NCBI GenBank assembly: GCA_903929765.1
Contig: CAIYVX010000038.1
Span: 1 to 37,357, forward strand
Length of the DNA stretch: 37,357 bases
Direction of reading: 5' to 3'
From: an uncultured Planctomycetia bacterium
GTDB lineage: Bacteria > Planctomycetota > Phycisphaerae > FEN-1346 > JAACEH01
Below are positions 26,974 to 27,949 of the stretch, piece after piece. Every line of letters starts with the position of its first letter. The first letter of the stretch is position 1. The translations under genes and the position numbers were made by a program. The notes under the pieces were generated by a model that saw only the letters and a list, made by a program, of their open reading frames with translations, was not told where the DNA came from and searched no databases.

Positions 26974-27002
26974 GGGGTACGAGAGGCGACAACGGCAGAA
27001 AC

Positions 27003-27113
27003 GGCGAATATCCAATAACGAACACCCAATATCCAATCATGAAGTGCGGACTGCGAGTCGGGAGTTTTTCCCTTGATGATTGGGTGTTGAGTATTGGATA
27101 TTGGATATTCGCT
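27003..27113. repeat. ATTGGATATT-type degenerate repeat in inverted arrangement
   Basis: The right half carries TATTGGATATTGGATATTCG and GATTGGGTGTT. The left half carries the reverse complements, such as CGAATATCCAATA and ACACCCAATATCCAATCAT. The arms flank about 30 bases. It has no coding potential and lies between the flavodoxin promoter and the coiled-coil gene terminator. Confidence 0.6.
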
Positions 27114-27149
27114 GTTTTTTTCGTGGCGAAATCACGGAAAAGGTCTGAA

Positions 27150-27189
27150 GAAAAAAAGTGGCCCGAACGTCTCCGCAAACGTTCGGGCC
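27150..27189 (-). terminator. Rho-independent terminator of the coiled-coil gene
   Basis: On the minus strand an 11-bp perfect stem GGCCCGAACGT/ACGTTCGGGCC with an 8-base loop is followed by AC and seven T residues. It lies about 75 bases after the stop codon of the 27266 gene. Confidence 0.88.
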
Positions 27190-27265
27190 TCCCTCACAAC
27201 TCTGGAATGCCACTACTGCAACCCTCCGCGCATCATCCCCGCGCTTCCCACGTGAGCTGCATCCT

Positions 27266-27526
27266 TCAGACCTCTCCCTCCTCCAACATCTTCCGAAGGA
27301 TACAGTTCTCCCGCTTCGTGGCCTCCAGGTCAAACGCCAGATACTTGATCGACAACCGCAGATAATCGAGACTGTTTTGCAGACTGGCGACGCTCTGCCG
27401 CAACTTTTCGTGCTGATTGGCCGCCGCCGCACCAACGTGTTCGAGTTTTTTCTTTTCCAGATCGGGGAACTTCTGCATTTCCACCAGCAGCTCGCTGATC
27501 TGTTGTTCGAAGGCTGCCTCATCCAT
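27266..27526 (-). CDS. Small coiled-coil protein under sigma54 control
   Basis: An 86-residue cytoplasmic protein, not recognised. Most of it is predicted helix with heptad-like Leu/Ile spacing (ISELLVEMQKF, SLQNSLDYLRLSIKYLAF, ENCILRKMLEE), suggesting a coiled-coil dimer or adaptor. MDEAAFEQQ is the chosen start: GGGAGG lies 9 bases upstream, and the longer frame would put the start inside that Shine-Dalgarno. It has a consensus sigma54 promoter (27560-27575) and its own terminator, so it is a complete one-gene unit. Function could be as a chaperone or scaffold, but nothing in the sequence decides this. Confidence 0.72.
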   Translation of the reverse strand: MDEAAFEQQISELLVEMQKFPDLEKKKLEHVGAAAANQHEKLRQSVASLQNSLDYLRLSIKYLAFDLEATKRENCILRKMLEEGEV

Positions 27527-27559
27527 GACTCGTACCTCCCTCGGCACTGCCCCACCTAA

Positions 27560-27575
27560 TGCAAAGTGCGTGCCA
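27560..27575 (-). promoter_or_regulatory. Consensus sigma54 (-24/-12) promoter
   Basis: The minus strand reads TGGCACG-CACT-TTGCA, an exact match to the sigma54 consensus TGGCACG-N4-TTGCW with correct GG-to-GC spacing. Transcription would start near 27549, about 23 bases before the ATG and just ahead of its Shine-Dalgarno. Confidence 0.82.
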
Positions 27576-27949
27576 GAAGGAAAGATTTCCGAAGAACTTT
27601 TGGCGACCCGTTTTTTTGCGTAATTTTGCTGGTTCCCAACCGGGATTTGCCGGACACTCGGAGTTTGCCCGGACTAACGATTGTAACGGACAGCGCTGCT
27701 TTGCATCATCATCGGAGGTTGCCACCAGGCTGCACGGCGGCTAAGTGGTGAATAGAGCGTAAGTTATGATTGTGATACCCGAAGGGAACGGTTGTGGTTT
27801 CTCTTCAACGTGCCCATCACTAAGCGGAGGGCCGTCTCAAACGGCACAAACGTCCCGTTCGCACCCTCAACCGGCACAAACGTCACAAACCGCAGGTGGC
27901 GGGGGTCGGAAGAGCGCAAACTGACGATTGGTTCGACTAACTTTATCGG
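27576..27949 (-). promoter_or_regulatory. Gene-free region upstream of the sigma54 promoter
   Basis: About 370 bases hold no gene that I can support. Two direct repeats are visible: TTTGCCGGAC/TTTGCCCGGAC at 27646 and 27664, and CGGCACAAACGTC at 27842 and 27872 (30 bases apart). Such pairs are candidates for the upstream sites of an AAA+ enhancer-binding protein, which a sigma54 promoter requires. This is inference. Confidence 0.35.

Follow-up and report, generated by a model that had tools for sequence, protein, structure and literature searches.

A small gene on the minus strand of the window (the whole stretch of 37,357 nucleotides that was analysed) encodes an 86-aa coiled-coil protein and is very probably under sigma54 control. 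On comparative grounds its activator is likely, with good confidence, to be an NtrC-type protein designated here as EBP-A, and the unit is probably the core target of an RpoN/EBP-A two-component system of planctomycetes, for which a link to cell surface and exopolysaccharide is proposed.

Organization of the unit and its promoter

The sequence-only reading of this DNA had described a self-contained unit consisting of a -24/-12 promoter, a Shine-Dalgarno sequence, an 86-residue gene and its own terminator. All of these parts were located on the minus strand; the features of the unit and its upstream region, with the nearest relative denoted as L003, are the following:

27152..27189, minus strand: intrinsic terminator with a 13-bp stem (stem 27189-27160), a loop of 4 and a U-run, from sequence and fold
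27266..27526, minus strand: gene of the 86-aa coiled-coil protein (P0001), stop codon included, with orthologues in Planctomycetota and a predicted helix 3-18 and long helix 22-84
27535..27540, minus strand: Shine-Dalgarno sequence GGGAGG, 8 nt ahead of the ATG at 27526, from sequence
27560..27575, minus strand: sigma54 -24/-12 promoter TGGCACGCACTTTGCA (TGGCACG-CACT-TTGCA), conserved ahead of orthologues
27694..27711, minus strand: probable EBP-A enhancer TGATG-ATGCAAAG-CAGCG, degenerate, its place and spacing matching TGATG-N8-CATCA of L003
27793..27810, minus strand: second, weaker enhancer-like dyad CGTTG-N8-CCACA with two mismatches, at -284 compared to a one-mismatch dyad at -300 in L003
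27836..27893, strand unspecified: direct repeats CTCAAACGGCACAAACGTC, probably not an enhancer, not found upstream in L003

The terminator is a strong one: its 51-nt fold has an energy of -27.2 kcal/mol (z -5.2). Behind it, an imperfect 53-nt inverted repeat of the AATATCCAAT type was observed at window positions 26992-27124, the core of which recurs in a few other places of the genome. The gene-free upstream region, earlier put at about 370 bases with two pairs of direct repeats, measures 374 bases between the -24 element and the next gene (27950), and both pairs are present. The parts of the unit are as described, but it does not stand entirely alone: the regulon to which it belongs extends, in relatives, to PEP-CTERM, PilZ and sugar-transferase genes.

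The promoter TGGCACGCACTTTGCA is located 49 nt ahead of the ATG and matches 12 out of 12 defined consensus positions. With GG at -24, GC at -12 and the correct spacing in TGGCACG-N4-TTGC, the earlier assignment of a consensus sigma54 promoter to 27560-27575 was confirmed. The genome contains rpoN, as well as eight strong sigma54-activator domains. The exact core TGGCACGN4TTGC is present in seven copies in the 3.83-Mb genome, with approximately 1.8 expected from base counts alone (an estimate assuming equal base frequencies). Further copies precede glnA and a response regulator gene with groES and groEL behind it (G000:C62:30618), and the core also occurs in a flagellar region. The glnA, groES/groEL-type and flagellar loci are usual contexts of sigma54. 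An exact site was also observed at G000:C67:50731 (L095:2232, + strand), reading TGGCACGACCTTTGCT. Weak dyads precede it and no plausible ORF follows; this site possibly drives a sigma54-dependent small RNA.

For 69 distinct orthologues, the 200 nt ahead of the gene were scored for sigma54 elements with weights that approximate the published consensus. A score of 12 or higher was reached in the sense direction in 31 of the 69 and in the antisense direction in none, comparative evidence which is decisive against chance. Conservation of the -24/-12 element, proposed earlier as a check, was thus recovered for about half of the orthologues, not for all. In the Pirellulales, the element takes the form YGGCACG-N4-NTGCT and is mostly located 50-56 nt ahead of the ATG.

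The coiled-coil protein family

The gene has orthologues in 50 of 61 relatives and also in 19 named contigs, all belonging to the Planctomycetota. An even draw across the phylum yielded the gene in 29 of 199 genomes, a sample too mixed to give rates. In all computable orthologue pairs but one, dN/dS was between 0 and 0.17; the exception (0.56) was a pair with a dS of 0.04. The ORF is clearly under purifying selection, and it passed the check that had been suggested on this point.

The orthologues share the invariant core K-Y-L-x-F-D-L-E-A-T-R-R-E. An AlphaFold model of the 86-aa protein (mean pLDDT 80) consists of a short helix of residues 3-18 and a long helix of residues 22-84, with an uninterrupted heptad register from residue 49 to 81. 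The invariant residues K61, Y62, F65, D66, E68, A69, R72 and E73 are located outside the a/d core. As most invariant residues are found there, the model suggests that this invariant outer surface is a partner-binding face. A parallel dimer is suggested by N74, which occupies an a position. The sequence has neither a signal peptide nor a PEP-CTERM tail; the predicted product is a small coiled coil of the cytosol, probably dimeric.

Searches of Pfam and NCBIfam with the 86-aa protein gave no match above the curated cut-offs, with weak coiled-coil matches only, and no PspA model was among the Pfam matches. PDB searches by sequence and by fold returned chance coiled-coil matches and nothing useful. 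YabA was matched weakly by 7 of 45 members (E 0.001), and this was discounted as a resemblance between coiled coils. No conserved gene neighbours were found in the class of the window. In the Pirellulales (L033-L050 and L146-L149), the gene is adjoined by a divergent gene for a secreted protein of about 890-1000 aa without Pfam match, and a Ser/Thr protein kinase is located downstream in about a dozen loci. These neighbours did not carry over as a general context.

Probable enhancer and activator

The direct repeats in the upstream region were considered as a possible enhancer. The repeats are real: CTCAAACGGCACAAACGTC occurs at 27836 and 27866 and, in a weaker form, a third time at 27875, and an 11-mer is repeated directly at 27673 and 27920. 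They were rejected as a conserved enhancer because they are absent upstream of the gene in L003. Inverted repeats upstream of the orthologues revealed a shared dyad, TGTTG-N8-CAACA, which is found in exact form ahead of 10 of the 69 orthologues and in one-mismatch form ahead of another 21; no exact and eight one-mismatch copies were counted in 271 kb of background sequence from the same loci. The conserved upstream site, a probable enhancer, is a dyad of this type. The corresponding dyads are located at -188 in L003 (TGATG-N8-CATCA) and at -185 in the window (TGATG-N8-CAGCG), each 136-137 bp away from its -24 element (136 bp in the window). With one mismatch to the local consensus TGWTG-N8-CAWCR and three to the strict dyad, the degenerate window copy is considered the weakest link of the case.

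Whole genomes were searched for composite sites of dyad and promoter, for which the controls were near zero. Genomes G015 and G024 of family f10 contained 32 and 13 sites, respectively. Outside f10 there were few matches, the coiled-coil gene being the most recurrent target with several of them; at a wider spacing and with f10 excluded, it accounted for three of the four matches. One composite site in f10 adjoins an NtrC-type activator, and the label EBP-A was given to its orthologues. These show about 49% identity and above, versus 47% and below for paralogues, a gap that is narrow for G046 and for family f59. In the genome of the window, EBP-A is encoded on contig C82 with 63% identity, compared to 46% or less for the other activators of this genome. 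Two further sigma54 activators, 95% identical to each other, are cut off at contig ends (G000:C56:4-501 and G000:C87:4-501).

EBP-A shares its operon with a histidine kinase of the GAF/PAS type. When these operons were located with tblastn, a dyad with at most one mismatch was found near their start in 22 of 25 genomes inspected, including that of the window. Ahead of the coiled-coil gene, a dyad and/or promoter was present in 42 of 49 EBP-A genomes versus 0 of 12 genomes without EBP-A (Fisher 3e-8, a P value that is too small since genomes of one family are not independent); several EBP-A genomes have no recognisable element upstream of the gene. At least four lineages, separate from one another, lack the element (f16, f59, part of f11 and one of f7), and for G033, G039, G051 and G057 of f11 this was predicted before the DNA was examined and then confirmed. 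In L026-L028 (family f16), which are without EBP-A, a sigma70-like promoter, TTGATT-17-TATTAT, replaces the sigma54 element. Among the 61 genomes, 41 have both the gene and EBP-A, 10 have neither (the whole of family f5 among them) and one has EBP-A alone. The gene alone was found in nine genomes, without the element, which indicates that its role is not tied to the EBP-A circuit alone. By sequence comparison, the gene, its promoter, the putative enhancer and the match between EBP-A and this enhancer could be demonstrated.

Other explanations of the unit were weighed against these data. A chance match to the -24/-12 consensus, with the gene driven by an ordinary promoter, is extremely improbable: although copies with no more than one mismatch are scarcely more frequent in the genome than in the reversed control (73 versus 65), the element has been conserved ahead of the orthologues, at comparable distances and never in antisense, and its presence correlates with EBP-A. 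A real promoter served by another activator, for example the NtrC-like protein by glnA/amt (C12) or the flagellar one (C40), would be compatible with the number of strong sigma54 activators in the genome and with the weak dyad ahead of the window gene. This is nevertheless quite improbable, given that the dyad found in relatives matches the one at the start of the EBP-A operon, that the element is missing wherever EBP-A is missing and that no dyad was found at the glnA, groES and flagellar sigma54 sites of this genome.

The coiled-coil protein could also be a feedback regulator of its own activator, induced by EBP-A and binding EBP-A or the kinase to shut off the response. The model for this is the phage-shock system, in which a coiled-coil protein, PspA, is sigma54-driven under an enhancer-binding protein, PspF, an arrangement which the present unit would share. 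PspA is much larger and membrane-binding, and PspF has no receiver domain. Feedback would agree with the co-occurrence of gene and EBP-A, the conserved outer face of a small coiled coil and the dyad of the EBP-A operon itself. It appears rather unlikely, however, as nine genomes keep the gene without EBP-A, the sigma70-like promoter in f16 implies that the gene works without this activator, and no similarity to PspA was found in the Pfam searches.

Proposed circuit and known systems

The regulation of the gene by sigma54 and EBP-A is well supported; the function of the protein, like the binding, phosphorylation and signal of EBP-A, we infer. A soluble GAF/PAS histidine kinase and EBP-A, both encoded on contig C82, would sense a signal, upon which phosphorylated EBP-A would bind a dyad of the TGTTG-N8-CAACA type about 100-200 bp upstream. 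Activation of the sigma54 polymerase at -24/-12 would then yield a short mRNA ending at the terminator, and EBP-A would probably control its own operon as well. The undescribed regulated response suggested by the sequence-only reading fits this proposal, a probable activator and enhancer having been identified. In relatives, this combination of enhancer and promoter also stands ahead of PEP-CTERM, PilZ and sugar-transferase genes. On this basis, the coiled-coil protein might serve a surface-attachment/exopolysaccharide programme as adaptor or regulator, a role that is put forward tentatively. Equally speculative is the wider proposal that this new protein family, as the most conserved target of a two-component sigma54 circuit widespread in Planctomycetota, is the master adaptor of a surface/PEP-CTERM/exopolysaccharide programme, the circuit having evolved apart from the proteobacterial PrsK/PrsR.

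The complete genes downstream of the composite sites of family f10 encode mostly PEP-CTERM proteins and one PilZ protein. The exact enhancer-plus-sigma54 sites of G015 and G024, mostly ahead of PEP-CTERM genes, would constitute a large sigma54 surface regulon outside the Proteobacteria. In G001, the dyad is located ahead of a gene for a small PEP-CTERM-like protein, and in G011 it separates a PilZ-like gene from one for a bacterial sugar transferase. The distances between dyad and promoter fall into groups near 96-100, 105-106, 110-113 and 116-125 bp, a pattern expected from the phasing of the DNA helix. An exosortase was found in 58 of 61 relatives, the genome of the window included. In this genome, the regulon of which was read from pattern matches only, at most one of about 31 PEP-CTERM genes shares enhancer and promoter, having a sigma54-like site with a weak dyad, so that the surface link depends mainly on family f10. 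A PEP-CTERM regulon as general explanation was not recovered in the window's own genome, and the surface link is to be regarded as a lead, not as a result.

The closest described system is PrsK/PrsR (TIGR02916/TIGR02915), with a sigma54 element ahead of proteobacterial PEP-CTERM genes (Haft et al. 2006, PMC1569441). In that survey, the motif of 17 nt ending in TTTACA, about 63 bp upstream, was found only in Proteobacteria and no PrsR was listed for Rhodopirellula baltica. Both circuits combine a two-component NtrC-type activator with sigma54 on single-gene units with long upstream regions, both have PEP-CTERM genes as targets (for EBP-A putatively, in family f10) and in both the activator is tied to exopolysaccharide genes. 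EBP-A differs in scoring below the TIGR02915 cut-off of 502.6 bits, which is passed in none of the 61 genomes (best 423 bits), and in its dyad TGTTG-N8-CAACA about 95-125 bp upstream, the two motifs being compared by description only. The core target is also different, being the coiled-coil protein here. In f10, EBP-A behaves as PrsR does, although it falls outside that family. The RpoN-dependent pepA of Aquincola tertiaricarbonis (PMC9850573) has a secreted PEP-CTERM product, unlike the 86-aa protein, which has neither signal peptide nor PEP-CTERM tail. The main text of a sigma54 survey that includes Planctomycetia (PMC12316311) mentions neither coiled-coil nor hypothetical proteins. No description of the coiled-coil gene or the dyad was found in a literature search, most subscription papers being outside its reach.

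The regulation of surface attachment in Planctomycetota is poorly known. The results suggest that this phylum may have its own sigma54 control of PEP-CTERM surface proteins. An uncharacterised and widely conserved planctomycete protein is now joined to a named activator, an enhancer and a sigma factor, which makes its function testable.
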